From assembly GCA_025774615.1 (NCBI GenBank), contig JALGVQ010000135.1, positions 1 through 7,793 of the forward strand: a DNA stretch of 7,793 nucleotides. Reading direction: 5' to 3'. Numbering within the stretch: position 1 is the first letter of the stretch; each line of letters opens with the position of its first letter. A model generated the notes under the pieces. That model was not told where the DNA came from. It worked only from the letters and a program-made list of their open reading frames with translations, and searched no databases. Made by a program: the position numbers and the translations under genes. This DNA is from a bacterium. GTDB taxonomy: Bacteria; Blakebacterota; Blakebacteria; Blakebacterales; Blakebacteraceae. This document shows, in pieces, positions 766-7,750 of the stretch.

Positions 766-1500
766 TCAGAATACCTGGTCGGAATGTACGATCACGTAAT
801 CCTTCAGGACCGGGAGAACCGGATGGGAATCAACATCTGCGCAGAGGGCCAGGTCACTCCCGTAGCCGGCTTCCTCCAGCCGCCGGCTGTGAGCTGCTCG
901 ACGAATCATGCGAAGAGGACTCTTCGGAGTTCTCTTACCCAGTTCAAGAGCCACCCAGGCACCATCATTCAGGGGCAGGACCTCCCGCCCGGTCGTTTCA
1001 CTCAGGCGGTGCAGGAGGAACCCTGCGCACGCAGTGTCCTCGAGAGAAAAGCCGCCATGGTGACCAGCGCATGCGATGGCTACGCTGTCACCTTTCGCGA
1101 TCTCCTCGATGACCCGACCGGCATTCACATACCCCCCGACGATCACCTTTCGCGCGCTCTGGGACGCCACGATCGCCCGACTGCCATTCGATGTGGACAG
1201 CACCAGCAGTTTGCCCTCTACCCGATCACGTGTGTATTCGGCCGGTGAATTGCCGAGATCACACCCCTCGACACGCTCCATCTCCCGCTCGGCACAGAGG
1301 AGAACGTCATCCATGCCCAGCTTCGAAACCATCTCGGTGGCGTCTTCCAGACTTTTTGCCGGGATGACTCCACGGGCACCATGATGGATCGCGGTGATGA
1401 TCGTTGTGGATGCTCGCAGAACGTCGATGACAACCACCGTACGCCCCCGTACCGCATCCTCATTGATCTCACCGGGAGCGAAATAGACCTGTACTTCCAT
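766..1500 (-). CDS. comB: ComB-family 2-phosphosulfolactate phosphatase
   Basis: ComB is a Mg-dependent phosphatase that converts 2-phosphosulfolactate to sulfolactate. This is the second step of coenzyme M synthesis in methanogens, and homologues are widespread in bacteria, where the role is often unclear. Family signatures are visible in order: VYFAPGEI at the N-terminus, VVVIDVLRASTTI (the DVLRA-T motif), ERVEGCDLGNSPAEY, LSTSNGSRAI, then AGHHGGFSLEDTACAG, and a C-terminal SRRLEEAGYGSDLALCADVD ending in LPVLKDYVIV. The product is 244 residues from the ATG at 1500, close to the usual family length. An in-frame ATG at 1518 would add six residues (MPGTPD). The 1500 start is preferred because MEVQVYFAPGE matches how the family begins and AGGA lies 9 nt upstream. 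It starts 27 bp after the gcvT stop (9 bp for the longer form), so the two are likely co-transcribed. No ComA, ComC or other sulfolactate gene is in the window, so the in vivo substrate is uncertain. Confidence 0.88.
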   Translation of the reverse strand: MEVQVYFAPGEINEDAVRGRTVVVIDVLRASTTIITAIHHGARGVIPAKSLEDATEMVSKLGMDDVLLCAEREMERVEGCDLGNSPAEYTRDRVEGKLLVLSTSNGSRAIVASQSARKVIVGGYVNAGRVIEEIAKGDSVAIACAGHHGGFSLEDTACAGFLLHRLSETTGREVLPLNDGAWVALELGKRTPKSPLRMIRRAAHSRRLEEAGYGSDLALCADVDSHPVLPVLKDYVIVHSDQVF

Positions 1501-1527
1501 GTCTGGTGTTCCTGGCATAATCAGCGG

Positions 1528-2637
1528 TTACTTCCGGCTACCCCGGGTATAGAACGGTAATCCAACGACAGTGGCTTCCACCTCACGTCCCCGGCAATCG
1601 ACGATGAGTTCACTCCCCTTGCCTGCCAGCTCGGTCGGCACATACGCCATGGCAATAGGAACACCTACCGAGGGACCTACTGTTCCACTGGTAACCTGAC
1701 CGATTTCGGCGTCACCTCGCAGTACGGGGTAACCAGGGCGGGGAAAGGCCTGTCCGCGCAGTTCGAGTCCAACCAGCCTGCGGCTCAATCCTTCCTCTTT
1801 CTGCTTCATCATGGCCTCACGTCCGAGAAAATCGCCCTTCTCCAATTTGACCACCCACGCCATCCGCGCTTCCAGTGGGGTCGTCTCCTCCCAGATATCA
1901 TTTCCGTAAAGATTATAGCCCACTTCCAGTCTGAGGGAATCCCGCGCGCCAAGTCCCACCGGCACGATCCCGACACTTTCACCCGCCTCCATCAGGGCAT
2001 CCCATACCGTTACGGCCCCCTGAGGATCATCGATGTAGATTTCGAAACCATCCTCGCCCGTATACCCGGTCCGTGATATGACCGCGGGAACTCCGGCGAC
2101 CTCCCCCGGCACGAACCAGTAGAACGCGATCCTCTCCAGGTCTGAGGATGTGAGGCTCCGGAGCGCAGCTTCGGACTTCGGGCCTTGCAGCGCGATGAGC
2201 GAGAATTCCTCACTGCGATTCCGGATCTCCACGTCACCGGCGACATGCTGCTCGAGCCAGTCCAGGTCTTTGGGGATATTGGACGCATTGACCACCATCA
2301 GATAGTGGTCGGGAAAACGGTAGAGGGTCAGGTCGTCTACCAGCCCTCCATGTTCGTAACAGAGGCCGGTATACTGAACCTGGAAAATCTTCAACTGTCC
2401 TGCGTCGTTGGTCACCATCCGCTGTACGTATTCGAAGGCGTCCTGACCCCAGATCTCGAACTCCCCCATGTGGCTGATGTCGAACATCCCGACTCCGGTC
2501 CTGACTTTGCGATGCTCGTCCTGGATACCCGAATACTGGACCGGCATCTGGAAGCCATGGAAATCCACCATTTTCGCGCCGAGTGCTGTATGTCTGTCAA
2601 AGAGGGGTGTTCGCACGGGCTCGGAACGATCAGTCAT
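1528..2637 (-). CDS. gcvT: Aminomethyltransferase, glycine cleavage system T protein
   Basis: GcvT takes the aminomethyl group from lipoylated H protein and transfers the carbon to tetrahydrofolate, giving 5,10-methylene-THF and ammonia. The product is 369 residues, full length for the family. Motifs in order: RTPLFDRHTALGAKMVDFHG (9-28), MPVQYSGIQDEH (31-42), GMFDISHMGEFEI (50-62), GGLVDDLTLYRF (97-108, containing the conserved Asp region for folate/aminomethyl chemistry), SRTGYTGEDGFEIYI (188-202), GLGARDSLRLEVGYNLYGND (228-247) and the C-terminal barrel with GQVTSGTVGPSVGVPIAMAY (313-332). The ATG at 2637 has AAAGGA 7 nt upstream. It is the first gene after a 234-bp gap with repeats and is followed closely by the comB-like gene. 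The partner genes gcvH, gcvP and lpd are absent from the window. A YgfZ-type paralogue is unlikely because the catalytic-region motifs are intact. Confidence 0.96.
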   Translation of the reverse strand: MTDRSEPVRTPLFDRHTALGAKMVDFHGFQMPVQYSGIQDEHRKVRTGVGMFDISHMGEFEIWGQDAFEYVQRMVTNDAGQLKIFQVQYTGLCYEHGGLVDDLTLYRFPDHYLMVVNASNIPKDLDWLEQHVAGDVEIRNRSEEFSLIALQGPKSEAALRSLTSSDLERIAFYWFVPGEVAGVPAVISRTGYTGEDGFEIYIDDPQGAVTVWDALMEAGESVGIVPVGLGARDSLRLEVGYNLYGNDIWEETTPLEARMAWVVKLEKGDFLGREAMMKQKEEGLSRRLVGLELRGQAFPRPGYPVLRGDAEIGQVTSGTVGPSVGVPIAMAYVPTELAGKGSELIVDCRGREVEATVVGLPFYTRGSRK

Positions 2638-2871: not shown

Positions 2872-4002
2872 TCACCTGTACCGTCGTGGGAGGCGGCCGT
2901 TGAGTCCGACCAGCAGTTCGTACTGTTCCCTGCCCGTGGCCCTGCCGATCTCGGCTGGATCGATGGTTCCCTCAGGTCCGGACCCCAGCAGGAGCGCGGT
3001 ACTGCCGATCCCCTCATCGGGGAGATCGGTCAGGTCGACGACACAGGAGTCCATGCTCACACTTCCCATAAGCGGGGCCCTCCCGGAGGGGAAAAGCACA
3101 TACCCCCCTTCAAGCCCCCACCGGTTCGGGATGCCATCGGCATAACCGATCGGGATAATACCGACCCTGCGACCCTCACCGACCGGTGTCTGTGAATACC
3201 CTACCAGGGCGTCAGCAGTGGTAGTCTTTACCACCGCAACACGTGCCCGCACGGCGATGACCGGTTCGAGCTGTACGTCATTGCCGAGCCAGTCCGCCGG
3301 CATCCAGCCGTAAAGTGTCAACCCCGGACGTACCAGATCGAAGGCCGATTCCTTTACTGAAAGGAGCGCGCTCGAGTTCGCGGCGTGGGCAATGAGTGTT
3401 CCATGGCTTTTACGAAGGCGTTCCACGAGCCGGGCAAACTCCGCCACTTCTGATCTGGTCCGCTTCAACGATTGCTCATCACCTGCATGTGCCGCTGCCA
3501 GGTGCGTGGCAACACCCTCCAGGGAAAGTCCATCGAGGGAGGCAATATCGCCTGCCACCAATTCCGCTTCTTCGAATGGGAATCCGAGGCGGTGCATCCC
3601 CATATCGACCTTCATGTGGACACGCTGCTTTATTCCGCGCCCTTTCGCCTCCGCATCGAGGGCCCTGGCCACCCGCATGTCGGAGAGGGCAATCACCGCG
3701 TCACATTCCATGGCCTCTTCAGCCTGCTCAGGCAGAAGCCCCCCCGGGATCAGGATCGTACCCCGGTACCCGTGCTCACGCAGATGGCGCGCCTCTGTCA
3801 CCAGGACGACTCCCACTCCCCATACCTTATCGATAGTCGCCAGGCGATCCACCACCGCCTCAGCGCCATGGCCGTAAGCATTGGCCTTCACGATCGGTAA
3901 CAGGGGAACCCCGGCGATCCCGGCCAGGGTCCGGGCATTTGATTCCAGGGCGTTCAGGTCGATATCGCACCATGCAGATCTCATGATCGCCACCATCGTC
4001 AT
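2872..4002 (-). CDS. alr: Alanine racemase (PLP-dependent)
   Basis: Alr interconverts L- and D-alanine in the cytoplasm, supplying D-Ala for peptidoglycan. Numbered from the ATG at 4002 the product is 376 residues, a normal length. The PLP lysine motif PIVKANAYGHG puts the Schiff-base lysine at K39. KVDMGMHRLGF (131-141) carries the conserved Lys and Arg of the active-site region. GVATHLAAAH holds H167, NSSALL (209-214) the phosphate-contacting serines, and RPGLTLYG (225-232) the pyridine-binding Arg. The C-terminal beta domain has VGYSQTPVGEGRR with catalytic Tyr Y269, IPIGYADG and MGSVSMDSCVVDL, and ends YELLVGLNGRLPRRYR. All key residues are present, so it should be active. The start is uncertain: in-frame ATGs at 4002, 3996 and 3984 all have weak ribosome sites, and 3984 (MRSAWCDIDLNAL) matches family N-termini best, giving 370 residues. 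It begins 27 bp after the preceding envelope gene (45 bp from the 3984 start), so read-through from that operon is plausible. Confidence 0.96.
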   Translation of the reverse strand: MTMVAIMRSAWCDIDLNALESNARTLAGIAGVPLLPIVKANAYGHGAEAVVDRLATIDKVWGVGVVLVTEARHLREHGYRGTILIPGGLLPEQAEEAMECDAVIALSDMRVARALDAEAKGRGIKQRVHMKVDMGMHRLGFPFEEAELVAGDIASLDGLSLEGVATHLAAAHAGDEQSLKRTRSEVAEFARLVERLRKSHGTLIAHAANSSALLSVKESAFDLVRPGLTLYGWMPADWLGNDVQLEPVIAVRARVAVVKTTTADALVGYSQTPVGEGRRVGIIPIGYADGIPNRWGLEGGYVLFPSGRAPLMGSVSMDSCVVDLTDLPDEGIGSTALLLGSGPEGTIDPAEIGRATGREQYELLVGLNGRLPRRYR

Positions 4003-4029: not shown

Positions 4030-5484
4030 TCACCTGTGGGAGCGCCAGCACACCAGAAAACCAGCCTCTGAACCGGGTTCGAACACAATCTGAAAGTGAA
4101 GTCCCTCCGGTCGGGAGGAAATACCGATGATAAACCGGAGATTCCGTTCTCTCTCCGTTCTCATACGCCACATCCAGGCTGGCCCTGGATCAAACCAGTA
4201 GAGGGGAATCCCCGGCTGTGGCTGTGAGTACGTCCCGCGAAGATATCCGTTCCAGCCCTTACCTTTGTAAGCGGCCTGCAGCCACCAGCCGATCGATCGT
4301 GGATCACTGTTTTCAGATTCAGCACGCAGCTCTCCCGACACACTCGATTTCTTCCCGGAACCACTCCAGATCCGAAGAACGGCAAGTCGCCGTTCGGTCA
4401 CTTTGTCGGGTTCCCAGCTCAGCCGCTCAAGGTCTGTGGTCCGGCGCAGTCTCAACAACCACCCAGCCCGGCGGATCGATTTCCGGCTGACCTCGAGTTG
4501 CTCTCTCCACCAGAAGGGTCCCGCAACCTGGCCGGGCGTACCTGCCGCCGTGACGGATCCGGGTTCGCCTGCCGCCGTAACCGACAGATCCCCTCGTATC
4601 GGTCCGGGAGGATGCATCGTTGCAGCAAATCGCAGACCTTCCCGTTTTTTCCGGGTCGCTCCCGATACCGGAGAAGCCATGGGAGGGGCACTTCCATCCC
4701 ACATCCACAACCGCATCTCCCACCTGATCACGTTGCCTATTGAGGTCATCACCGCTTCAAGCGAAGCACCATCCTCTCCACTGCGGGAACTCCAGCCGGC
4801 TGCGCCCAACCGCCAGGATACCTTGCCGCGCCGCCTTCCCATCACGATCTCCACAGCCGCTGTTCCAGCTGACGCAAGGAGCACACCCCCACGACCCTCA
4901 CGGTCAAGGACCCCGAACGCAACAAAGGATTCCGCCTCTTCCTCCCGCTCCTTCTTCCGCTCTCTCAGGATCGCCAGTGATACCCCCCGACCGTCATCTC
5001 TCTGCAACGCGATACTCACCGGAGTGTTCGAAGAAGCCGATACCGGGCCTGACCTGAGCCCAGTGGGCACACCCGACCAGGCCGACCGCGCACCCGCGCC
5101 ACGATAATCGAGTGTGTTGGCACGTACGAGCAGACCTCCGCCCATTCCCCCCCGGAGCGGGCCGAAAAGCAGCTTCCACCTTCCCGCTTCGATCTCAAGA
5201 GAAGAACTGCTGAAGGGACGATCACCTGTCAGGGCTTGATCGATCCTGACACGGCATCTGGCATCGAGCAGACTGAAGGAGGGATCGAGCGATGTCTGCA
5301 GGGAGAGTGATCCCTCTCCTTCGGCGTACCTCAACCATGCCCGGGTGCCGGTACCCTGCCGGGGTTCAGGCAGGCGCAGTTCAGCATCGGCGAGCAGGTT
5401 CCCGGTGATCTCCAGCCAGCGATAATCCGCGATCGGTCCCACTGTCATAAGCCTCACCACCAGGATCAGCATCAGAGGATTCAT
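4030..5484 (-). CDS. Exported beta-rich protein, probable outer-membrane barrel
   Basis: No function can be named. The product is 484 residues from the ATG at 5484, which overlaps the upstream stop as ATGA. A longer frame starting at 5547 is rejected because it would run 64 bp into the upstream gene and bury the signal. The N-terminus (MNPLMLILVVRLMTVG) is a short hydrophobic signal or anchor segment. The rest is dominated by alternating polar/hydrophobic beta strands with Trp, Tyr and Arg. The stretch LEIEAGRWKLLFGPLRGGMG (96-115), followed by GGLLVRAN, resembles the strand-turn seen in ComEA-like outer-membrane barrels of FCB bacteria. So does the late IPLYWFDPGPAWMWRMR (426-442). No helix-hairpin-helix domain is present. 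A highly charged ERKKEREEEAE (174-184) looks like a loop. A 9-residue tandem repeat SVTAAGEPG/SVTAAGTPG lies at 301-318. The last residues (FEPGSEAGFLVCWRSHR) lack a classic terminal Phe/Tyr, a point against canonical Bam-inserted porins. The gene itself is well supported, the barrel role only moderately. Confidence 0.8.
   Translation of the reverse strand: MNPLMLILVVRLMTVGPIADYRWLEITGNLLADAELRLPEPRQGTGTRAWLRYAEGEGSLSLQTSLDPSFSLLDARCRVRIDQALTGDRPFSSSSLEIEAGRWKLLFGPLRGGMGGGLLVRANTLDYRGAGARSAWSGVPTGLRSGPVSASSNTPVSIALQRDDGRGVSLAILRERKKEREEEAESFVAFGVLDREGRGGVLLASAGTAAVEIVMGRRRGKVSWRLGAAGWSSRSGEDGASLEAVMTSIGNVIRWEMRLWMWDGSAPPMASPVSGATRKKREGLRFAATMHPPGPIRGDLSVTAAGEPGSVTAAGTPGQVAGPFWWREQLEVSRKSIRRAGWLLRLRRTTDLERLSWEPDKVTERRLAVLRIWSGSGKKSSVSGELRAESENSDPRSIGWWLQAAYKGKGWNGYLRGTYSQPQPGIPLYWFDPGPAWMWRMRTERERNLRFIIGISSRPEGLHFQIVFEPGSEAGFLVCWRSHR
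4541..4594. repeat. 27-bp in-frame tandem duplication inside the 484-residue gene
   Basis: Two adjacent 27-bp units (4541-4567 and 4568-4594) share cctgccgccgt and encode SVTAAGEPG and SVTAAGTPG. The units have diverged at several bases but keep frame. This is likely a repeat-length change in a surface loop or linker. Confidence 0.75.
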
Positions 5485-6338
5485 CGCTCCCGCCCTTCCG
5501 ACGCTCTGATGCTCCACAGCAGATAAAGTCCCGGCCCGGCAACCCATCGACCCTCAACACACCACGTGATCCCGCCGATGGTCAAATCGATCCCTGCCGC
5601 GGGTGCCACCGGTGCTCCCCATCCGCCCACACTGAATCGGACACCTCCATACTTCCAGTTGATCGATATGGAAGGCTCCAGGGGTTTTCGCTGTTTTTTC
5701 AGGCCGCCGAGATATCTCACACCGCCGATCCGCAGGGTGACGGGACCATCACTGCAGGCCACCGCGCACCCGAGCCGAGTCTGTCTCCTCTCCCGGTCGA
5801 CTGGTTTGTCGATCGTTCCCCGTACCTCGGCAGCCGCGGACCAGGTTCCCCTAAAGAGTCGGACAACGCCGATCCTGTATCGGTTCCATCTCAGGCTTCT
5901 CGCCCCCGCGCCCCCCAGACTCAGAAAGGTGAGGCCCGAAACCACATGAGTTTCTGAGTATCCCGATGGCGCCGGAACCTGTCCGGTATTCGTGGAACGA
6001 GGGAGCTGAGTTGCCAGTGCGAAATGGATCGACCGATGCTGGAGACCATCACCTGACAACTGGCGCCATTCAACAGCAACACCCGAACGACCCTGTCTGA
6101 TGGCAATTGCCGCTCCCGAACAGGAAAGTCCCGGTACCCCGTACGGGGTTGCATGGGAAATCCACCAGCCAGGACCACTATCGATCGAGAGAAGTGAGGC
6201 ACCCGCCACGGCTGTGGAATCAAGCAGTGCCCCTGCGCCTTCAACGGTCCAGCCATGCCGTGGAGGAAGCAGATCCTGGCCAGCGACCATCCATTGTGAT
6301 ACCAGCAGGGCAGGGAACAGAAATACCCGGGCCCTCAA
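5481..6338 (-). CDS. Secreted beta-rich protein, probable envelope/outer-membrane component
   Basis: Not a recognised family. The product is 285 residues if it starts at the TTG at 6338, which overlaps the stop of the preceding gene as TTGA. A GTG at 6371 would add 11 residues (MDCSSGVGGAA) and overlap the upstream gene by 37 bp. The TTG start is preferred because it gives a clean signal peptide (RARVFLFPALLVSQWMVAGQ, cleavage probably after VAG or GQ) and has GGGGGT 6 nt upstream. The mature part is beta-rich with many Gly and Trp: GWWISHATPYGVPGLSCSGA (57-76), a central AAAEVRGTIDKP, then evenly spaced strands VTLRIGGVRYLGG, EPSISINWKYGGVRFSVGG, IDLTIGGITWCVEGRW and LYLLWSIRAS. This regular strand pattern at the C-terminus suggests a small beta-barrel. 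Its stop overlaps the next gene as ATGA, so it is translationally coupled on both sides. It is probably a partner of the following 484-residue protein. Confidence 0.8.
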   Translation of the reverse strand: MRARVFLFPALLVSQWMVAGQDLLPPRHGWTVEGAGALLDSTAVAGASLLSIDSGPGWWISHATPYGVPGLSCSGAAIAIRQGRSGVAVEWRQLSGDGLQHRSIHFALATQLPRSTNTGQVPAPSGYSETHVVSGLTFLSLGGAGARSLRWNRYRIGVVRLFRGTWSAAAEVRGTIDKPVDRERRQTRLGCAVACSDGPVTLRIGGVRYLGGLKKQRKPLEPSISINWKYGGVRFSVGGWGAPVAPAAGIDLTIGGITWCVEGRWVAGPGLYLLWSIRASEGRER

Positions 6339-7750
6339 GGCCGCACCCCCAACGCCTGACGAACAGTCCACTCCAGGGAGCTGTCTTCATCATGGGCCTG
6401 TACCGTGAGCAGGTAAATACCCGGCGCAACCTGGTTGCTCCCGGAGCGCGGATCCCAGATCTCCTCTCCGGTCCCCGGAACCAGGATACCCCGGATGAGG
6501 AGAGCCACCTCACGACCCGACATATCGAACAGCCTCGCCCACACCCGCAGGCGCGTTGCCGAACTATTCCACCGCAGAGTGATCCGACCATCCGGGAGAT
6601 GATCGGTTCCGAACCGGAATACCCCCGTCTCTTCCACCGGTGATCGAGCCGCATCGATCCGGCCGGGTGATGAATCATCGACAGATCGCCCGATTCCCCA
6701 TGCCTCGGGTGACCATCCGGGGAGATCGGGCCGCCATCTCTGCCACGTGATCCCGCGTGGCAATCCATCTACCGGACGGATCACCGCACTGTCCACTACC
6801 GCTCCGGCCGGGTCGGTCAGGGTGATGACACTGCCCCCATCGGCGATCCGCAGACCGGGCCAGATGTGAGGCACAACGGTCTGATCGAAGCCCTGAGAGA
6901 GCAATGGATCCCTGATAGTGCTGTCTGAGGCAACGAGGAGAACCTGACCGGTTCTGTCGCCTATGACCGATCGTCTCCCACTGGAAAGTGGTGACGCCAT
7001 GGAGCGTATGGTAAGGCTCCATCCGAACCATGTTGCATCAGGTGTGGTTCCGGAAGCTGTCACCCCCATGATGCCGGCCTCCGCGCATTCCACCCATTCA
7101 CTCCACCCCTCGAGGGGACGTGGCTGAACCTCGGAGATGACTCTCGAAAGGGGCCGGTGGGGTATTGGCGCTGGTGAGTTTTCTCTCCCCGGAGTCGACC
7201 CGGTCGGGTCACGGCTCGGTATCCATGAAACCACCCCGGAATCATCCACTTGCCGTTCCCAGGAAATCCCGTCACCGGAATCAGATTCCCAGGCAACCGA
7301 ATCGACAATGCCACCAGAGGGACCGATGAGTACCAGCCTGTCTCCCGCTGCCCGGAGACCGTTTCCCAGAGTGGTGTCATCAGTTTTCAGAACCAGTACA
7401 TCAGGGAGGAGATCGAACGTGGCCGGATCACCATCAGGATCGAGAATGAGCGCGAACCCGTCCGGTTGGAGCAGTGTAGAGCCCCCGCTGTACCACGGCA
7501 CGATCAGGTCAGTGGGATCATGGGTGTCTCCCAGAACCCACCCGGAAAGGTCGACCGCCTGATCGCACCTGTTTATCAGTTCGATCCACTCACCGGCACC
7601 GTTTCCCTCGGAACCGGGCGCGTTCGCCATCACCTCGTTGAACAGGATCGTATCGGAGTAGTGCCAAACGGAATGTTCAGTACGGAATGTCGAACCGGTG
7701 GTGCAGATACAGCAGATGCAGACGAGCGTGATCACCTGAGAACGACTCAT
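6335..7750 (-). CDS. Secreted protein with two lamin-tail domains and a FlgD-like/type IX-like C-terminal domain
   Basis: The product is 471 residues from the ATG at 7750. A GTG at 7762 would add four. The N-terminus (MSRSQVITLVCICCICTTGS) is a Sec-type signal peptide, with no good lipobox despite the Cys cluster. Residues about 34-187 form a lamin-tail domain: ILFNEVMANAP, GEWIELINRCDQAVDLSGWV, LRAAGDRLVLIGPSGGIVDS, ISWERQVDDSG and TPGREN. Residues about 204-366 repeat this plan in diverged form (VISEVQPRP, EWVECAE, LRIADGGSVITLTDPAGAVV, ITWQR, SPGRID), so a second lamin-tail copy is likely. Residues about 381-466 resemble FlgD Ig-like/secretion C-terminal domains: VWARLFDMSGREVALLIRG, EEIWDPR, VAPGIYLLTVQA. 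Bacterial lamin-tail domains occur in exported proteins, often beside nucleases or adhesins, but no catalytic domain is present here. It is therefore probably a surface binding or structural protein. It is the first gene of a coupled envelope operon, joined to the next gene by a TTGA overlap. Confidence 0.88.
   Translation of the reverse strand: MSRSQVITLVCICCICTTGSTFRTEHSVWHYSDTILFNEVMANAPGSEGNGAGEWIELINRCDQAVDLSGWVLGDTHDPTDLIVPWYSGGSTLLQPDGFALILDPDGDPATFDLLPDVLVLKTDDTTLGNGLRAAGDRLVLIGPSGGIVDSVAWESDSGDGISWERQVDDSGVVSWIPSRDPTGSTPGRENSPAPIPHRPLSRVISEVQPRPLEGWSEWVECAEAGIMGVTASGTTPDATWFGWSLTIRSMASPLSSGRRSVIGDRTGQVLLVASDSTIRDPLLSQGFDQTVVPHIWPGLRIADGGSVITLTDPAGAVVDSAVIRPVDGLPRGITWQRWRPDLPGWSPEAWGIGRSVDDSSPGRIDAARSPVEETGVFRFGTDHLPDGRITLRWNSSATRLRVWARLFDMSGREVALLIRGILVPGTGEEIWDPRSGSNQVAPGIYLLTVQAHDEDSSLEWTVRQALGVRP
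6345..6350 (-). promoter_or_regulatory. Shine-Dalgarno supporting the TTG start at 6338
   Basis: GGGGGT on the minus strand lies 6 nt before TTG, inside the last codons of the upstream lamin-tail gene. It decides the choice of the TTG start over the GTG at 6371 and supports coupled translation. Confidence 0.55.

Follow-up and report, generated by a model that had tools for sequence, protein, structure and literature searches.

The window analyzed here, a 7,793-nucleotide stretch that makes up the entire contig JALGVQ010000135.1 (C197) of a 3.3-Mb draft genome (G000, 82% complete) from the candidate phylum Blakebacterota, carries a run of three consecutive minus-strand genes that we call P1, P2, and P3. 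An earlier note on this DNA had proposed that these genes encode a lamin-tail protein and two barrel-like proteins of an undescribed envelope system. The sequence confirms that the genes are joined by stop/start overlaps, TTGA between P1 and P2 and ATGA between P2 and P3 (Table 1), and these overlaps show that the three genes are translationally coupled. This arrangement is most naturally read as a joint complex, although the overlaps demonstrate coupling and not the fixed stoichiometry that had also been proposed. Signal peptides had been assigned to all three products; P1 and P2 have a clear N-terminal hydrophobic stretch, and that of P3 is weak.

The trio is retained within the phylum, for which four genomes were compared (G000 to G003, 63–85% complete). 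In a second genus (G002; JAGLTZ010000165.1, deposited as Candidatus Latescibacterota bacterium RS_11_2), a YbbR-like gene and tsaD are followed by the lamin-tail gene, P2, P3, and the contig end, and both 4-base overlaps are kept as GTGA (P1/P2) and ATGA (P2/P3). A contig of G001 (JALGWK010000331.1, Meg22_46_Bin_213) holds P3, the alanine racemase gene alr, and gcvT before it ends. Because the relatives keep the proteins at 34–50% identity (48% for P1 in G002, 34% for P2, and 37–50% for P3), P1, P2, and P3 are real genes. The lamin-tail protein of G002 (L027, 6785-8563) carries about 100 additional amino acids, possibly CARDB-like, between its two lamin-tail domains. Neither P2 nor P3 was found in G003 (63% complete), whose sole P1-like match is an unrelated 1103-aa lamin-tail protein. 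A P3 profile run against 386 genomes returned only this phylum and weak matches, those inspected being unrelated, and a scan of genome contigs gave nothing with P3 alone and only the two known relatives with the P3 alignment. Distant lamin-tail loci picked by P1 alone (L029–L038) were generally not accompanied by the trio.

P1 carries the two lamin-tail domains (LTDs) that had been noticed from the sequence. The first exceeds the curated cut-off of the Pfam family (53.9 bits versus 34.3), and the second, which scored below Pfam, was recovered with a local profile built from the LTDs of related loci. The C-terminal domain, described earlier as resembling those of the type IX secretion system (T9SS), is matched by the C-terminal domains of LTD proteins at other trio loci, and such relatives in turn match CHU_C or FlgD_ig. 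The domains read earlier from the sequence are thus borne out. On its own, P1 gave no FlgD_ig, Por_Secre_tail, or CHU_C match in Pfam or NCBIfam. P1 is likely a surface protein. SprA, the T9SS channel, is encoded in all four phylum genomes (on contig C7 of G000 with 669.8 bits, over the cut-off), and the P1 tail can therefore be served by a T9SS. For the same reason, the T9SS is a more likely exporter of P1 than the two barrels, which had been suggested for this role. A full PorU sortase was found in G341, G396, and G137, whereas G000 to G003, incomplete as they are, gave C-terminal-domain matches only.

The second protein is best described as PorV-like. An AlphaFold2 model built from 16 sequences contains 14 strands (predicted local distance difference test [pLDDT] score 64.6, predicted template modeling score 0.66), and its top matches in the PDB are PorV of the T9SS (8gl6_F, Z 24.2, 2.8 Å over 253 residues; 6h3i_F, Z 24.0), with FadL tied at Z 24.1 and TodX (23.0) and BamG (9n2d_B, 21.4) close behind. 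By this model and structural alignment, P2 has the 14-strand barrel and fold of the FadL/PorV superfamily. P2 is thus a membrane barrel, and the possibility raised earlier that the downstream proteins are not barrels does not hold for it. Profiles of the PorV-like proteins that precede the barrel genes of distant genomes described below also match P2 (hhalign global P 1e-5; none of 100 shuffles scored equally), and those proteins match the NCBIfam PorV family (NF033709) below its cut-off. P2 itself had no NCBIfam match at E values up to 1, which places it below the PorV/PorQ model NF033709, and no significant Pfam match. Because no curated hidden Markov model (HMM) matches it, we call P2 PorV-like on the basis of fold and distant homology, and not a PorV.

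Indeed, comparison with distant genomes indicates that the trio does not stand alone. Proteins of about 560–840 aa that start with a ComEA-like helix-hairpin-helix (HhH) domain (HHH_3) and continue as a large beta-rich region were first seen in G004 and G055, where a PorV-like gene immediately precedes both. A profile search added 40 further loci of these HhH-barrel genes, and 58 loci were counted in total; most of the 256 genomes matched by the profile match its HhH part only and do not count as barrel carriers. Most long HhH matches lay in open reading frames that resemble the Tex S1 RNA-binding protein in sequence, and not in barrels. A PorV-like gene adjoins the HhH-barrel gene at 15 of the 17 loci in the candidate phylum of G341 and at 19 of 41 elsewhere, and an LTD gene lies upstream at 16 of the 17 and at 3 of the 41, with L154 added through Pfam. 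The order LTD, PorV-like, HhH-barrel, often with overlapping genes, recurs at L131, L132, L141 (with one extra open reading frame inside it), L153, L154, and most of L189–L204. A second FadL/BamG-like barrel of about 400–430 aa often follows the HhH-barrel gene (L131, L132, L143, L146, L147, L152, L154, L157, and L158).

Of the 58 family members, 48 have the HhH domain on the large barrel. At six loci, one or two ComEA-like HhH domains are instead found at the C terminus of the PorV-like protein, directly before the large barrel. Judged from these comparisons, the window trio is a divergent case of a gene set seen in several phyla of the Fibrobacterota–Chlorobiota–Bacteroidota (FCB) group and is not confined to its own lineage, a point on which the earlier reading is corrected. 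We consider both the gene set and the barrel assignment of P2 highly probable.

Placement of P3 in this family draws on several lines of comparison. No significant match was obtained with Pfam or NCBIfam HMMs. Two segments of P3 align with the core and the C-terminal motif of the HhH-barrel family in the same order (Table 1). When 450 neighbouring proteins were ranked, four of the five best P3 matches were barrel-family members, and the top match was L156 of G284, a member of this family with no detectable HhH domain. This rank test is not repeated independent evidence because the family members are related to one another. L156 suggests that barrel proteins of this family can exist without the domain. 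Two different P3 homologs match L156 colinearly (blastp E 0.006–0.007; for G1_3, in the region of the C-terminal motif, 41% identity over 41 aa, E 0.007), and the order L156-gcvT-comB in G284 corresponds on the same strand to P3-alr-gcvT-comB in the window. The local context also fits the family, in that P3 directly follows the PorV-like gene with the LTD gene upstream, both in the window and in G002. Supported by this synteny and by the HhH-less intermediate, P3 is probably a large barrel of the HhH-barrel family that lacks the HhH domain.

Table 1. Coordinates of the three genes, their domains, neighbouring genes in the window, and PorV-like genes with C-terminal HhH domains at other loci.
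Feature	Coordinates	Strand	Description
P1	6335..7762	minus	475 aa from GTG 7762, or 471 aa from ATG 7750; two lamin-tail domains and a T9SS/FlgD-like C-terminal domain
P2	5481..6338	minus	285 aa, TTG start; PorV/FadL superfamily outer-membrane barrel, signal-like N terminus
P3	4030..5484	minus	484 aa, ATG start; beta-rich, probably an HhH-less large barrel of the HhH-barrel family
P1/P2 overlap TTGA	6335..6338	minus	P2 start TTG and P1 stop TGA; sequence
P2/P3 overlap ATGA	5481..5484	minus	P3 start ATG and P2 stop TGA; sequence
First lamin-tail domain of P1, residues 37-159	7286..7654	minus	Pfam PF00932, E 2.7e-14
Second, diverged lamin-tail domain of P1, residues 203-377	6632..7156	minus	LTD profile E 1.1e-9; hhalign probability 96%, P 4.7e-9
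P1 C-terminal domain, ~residues 391-473	6344..6592	minus	FlgD_ig/CHU_C/T9SS-tail-like; hhalign 97.5%, P 5.3e-12
P3 residues 82-166	4987..5241	minus	hhalign to the GnY.l.fGQGL core of the HhH-barrel family
P3 residues 404-455, LYWF(D/E)PGP	4120..4275	minus	hhalign to the C-terminal RiY.yE.dLPG...Rwyv motif of the HhH-barrel family
alr (alanine racemase)	2872..4002	minus	27 bases past P3; TIGR00492, 244.8 bits; order common to G001 (L028)
gcvT	1528..2637	minus	Pfam/NCBIfam HMM; in G284 (L156) directly after the HhH-less barrel
comB (2-phosphosulfolactate phosphatase)	766..1518	minus	after gcvT, as in G284
PorV-like with C-terminal HhH, L142	6019-7299		
PorV-like with C-terminal HhH, L139	4820-6100		
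PorV-like with C-terminal HhH, L143	1391-2755		
PorV-like with C-terminal HhH, L144	1632-3053		
PorV-like with C-terminal HhH, L157	5243-6667		
PorV-like with C-terminal HhH, L121	5233-6327		

The minus-strand run of the window ends, past comB, with the start of ftsK. In the gap between alr and gcvT, at 2779-2848, a 22-base unit, CACTTCCGGGACGATATCCAGA, occurs three times with a 100% match.

A link to competence, absent from the readings offered earlier for this DNA, comes from the neighbours of the HhH-barrel genes. In G064 (L134 1-5807, G064:C1), the HhH-barrel gene shares 10 bases with comEC, and recQ comes after. In G210, the LTD, PorV-like, HhH-barrel, and second barrel genes and one more gene are followed by comEC, which lies about 2.4 kb past the HhH-barrel gene. 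Two such loci among about 40 are above the expectation for random placement, but the pattern was noticed after the fact. ComEC is encoded in all four phylum genomes (G000:C96, E 5.3e-45). G000 also encodes, near sprA, a ComEA-like protein of 159 aa with one N-terminal hydrophobic helix and an HhH domain, with equivalents in G001 and G002, so that the genome of the window contains both ComEC and an HhH protein of the DNA-binding type. In three phylum genomes (L213 6369-14546 in G000:C7, L214, and L216), sprA is followed by a peptidase-like gene, the ComEA-like gene with its transmembrane helix and HhH domain, and a pilin-like gene.

Because the HhH domain occurs on either barrel and comEC can be an operon neighbour, the family is most economically explained by a role in DNA uptake. 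The best overall explanation of the trio, which we advance as somewhat short of an even chance, is that it forms an outer-membrane assembly serving as a portal for DNA uptake. That P1, P2, and P3 would act as one complex is reasonably likely, and DNA as the cargo of that complex is a possibility that we hold tentatively. In such an assembly, P3 would form a large beta-barrel with P2 alongside as its 14-strand partner of the PorV/BamG type. P1 would be exported through SprA and then held on the surface by P2 through its C-terminal domain, an anchoring that we infer, which would position the lamin-tail domains over the pore. The portal would pass DNA to HhH proteins and then to ComEC, and in the window lineage the separate membrane-anchored ComEA-like protein could supply the HhH domain that is absent from the barrel. 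Solved precedents exist in which both a surface protein and a FadL/PorV-type partner accompany a large barrel (6h3i/8gl6; the Flavobacterium beta-barrel assembly machinery [BAM] complex, PMC12611786). More doubtful is the broader proposition that an LTD protein, a PorV-like barrel, and an HhH-bearing large barrel constitute an undescribed FCB portal for DNA built on the SprA-PorV/BamA-BamG plan and not on a PilQ secretin, with the HhH function transferred to another protein in the window lineage.

Several observations weigh against a DNA-uptake portal. The P3 model is all-beta with about 24 strands, but its mean pLDDT of 39 signifies low confidence, and the word barrel for P3 therefore rests on its family assignment. 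The profile match of P3 to the HhH-barrel family is colinear but weak (single-match P 0.02–0.1), and 2 of 100 shuffles scored equally. No HhH domain was found in P3 or in its two homologs, of which G1_3 lacks its N terminus at a contig end, and because the barrel has no HhH there, function could have drifted in the window lineage. The adjacency to comEC is limited to two lineages, and outside the phylum of G341 most HhH-barrel loci have no LTD neighbour. Proteins that are not known to bind DNA can have HhH folds as well, for example protein K of the type II secretion system, to which a weak T2SSK match was seen.

The strongest alternative, although unlikely, is an accessory or display module of the T9SS. 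P2 would then be a PorV/PorQ-like shuttle dedicated to P1, P3 would anchor or process P1 at the surface, no DNA would be involved, and the LTDs would serve adhesion or envelope structure. The T9SS/FlgD-like tail of P1, the presence of sprA in the genome, the structural rank of T9SS PorV as the best match of P2, and the resemblance of its PorV-like relatives to NF033709 all agree with this proposal. It accounts less well for the PorV-like/HhH-barrel pairs that have no LTD neighbour in most other lineages, for the absence of a full PorU from the four phylum genomes, incomplete though they are, and for G064, a complete genome with no SprA or PorU match that nevertheless keeps its HhH-barrel gene beside comEC.

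We consider it improbable that the trio is a BAM-like accessory for envelope biogenesis, in which a BamG-like P2 beside the large barrel and a P1 acting as a BamH-like canopy would insert or mature particular outer-membrane proteins. This proposal leaves the HhH domains and comEC neighbours of the relatives unexplained, no lipobox or BamH resemblance was seen in P1, and P2 lacks a BamG or PorV HMM match, even though the P2 fold matches BamG, the second barrel at several loci has partial BamG similarity (L132, BamG 4.2e-26, below the cut-off), and in the Flavobacterium BAM complex a FadL-type barrel bears a surface protein (PMC12611786). Uptake of nutrients or hydrophobic compounds, with P2 as a FadL-type transporter, P3 as a porin, and P1 as a binding protein, is slightly more improbable still. 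The matches of P2 to FadL and TodX, which are as good as its match to PorV, speak for it, but the HhH fusions, the conserved LTD protein, and conservation across phyla of differing physiology would go unexplained.

The component families are known, and their combination appears to be unnamed. In agreement with the earlier statement that no named system has this composition, the set was not found in open-access literature on lamin-tail domains with the T9SS or outer membrane, or on PorV with competence and HhH. DNA passage across the outer membrane in Bacteroidota and their kin is poorly understood, and a PorV-type barrel with an HhH-bearing large barrel, sometimes overlapping comEC, is a concrete candidate for knockout. 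If the DNA-uptake portal is correct, it would point to a broader FCB plan in which outer-membrane machines combine a surface protein with a large barrel and its FadL/PorV-type partner, and it would offer a function for the lamin-tail domains of bacteria. LTDs are also present in extracellular nucleases of bacteria, ExeM among them; the ExeM domain aids activity in vitro but is dispensable for extracellular DNA degradation, and its role is unresolved (PMC6085458).

Among known systems, the transformation genes of Riemerella anatipestifer offer a functional parallel. Transformation there needs a surface protein, a barrel, an HhH protein, and ComEC, and the first three, recovered in a transposon screen, are unlike well-known transformation machinery (PMC8459023). 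As in the trio, the surface protein (RA0C_RS04920) and barrel (RA0C_RS04915) share one operon, and the HhH protein (RA0C_RS02645) and ComEC are encoded separately. The families differ, however, the R. anatipestifer proteins being of the DUF5689 and carboxypeptidase-regulatory barrel types, and no LTD or PorV-like protein was reported (PMC8459023). Compared with the HhH-barrel proteins of other FCB genomes, in which the HHH_3 domain gives weak comEA HMM matches, P3 is shorter (484 versus about 560–840 aa) and lacks the domain, but it likewise follows a PorV-like gene and shares with them the weak colinear motifs and, with L156, the gcvT-comB synteny.

The closest structural likenesses are to two characterized assemblies. 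P2 differs from PorV of the T9SS (8gl6 chain F and 6h3i chain F) in its length (285 aa versus 345–367 residues in the solved chains), in lacking an NF033709 or NF033710 match, and in the coupling of its gene to P3 and not to SprA. SprA was considered as the missing large barrel of the trio and rejected, as its gene sits among neighbours of its own on a different contig. P2 nonetheless shares the 14-strand FadL-type fold of PorV (Z 24) and is encoded with a protein bearing a T9SS-like tail and with a probable large-barrel partner. The trio lacks BamA, BamD, and BamH, and P2 has no BamG HMM match, yet in the Bacteroidota BamG/BamH BAM complex (PMC12611786) a FadL-type partner barrel that adjoins a large barrel similarly holds a surface protein. 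We file the trio set as a variant, with a testable function, of the plan that joins a large barrel to a PorV-type partner.

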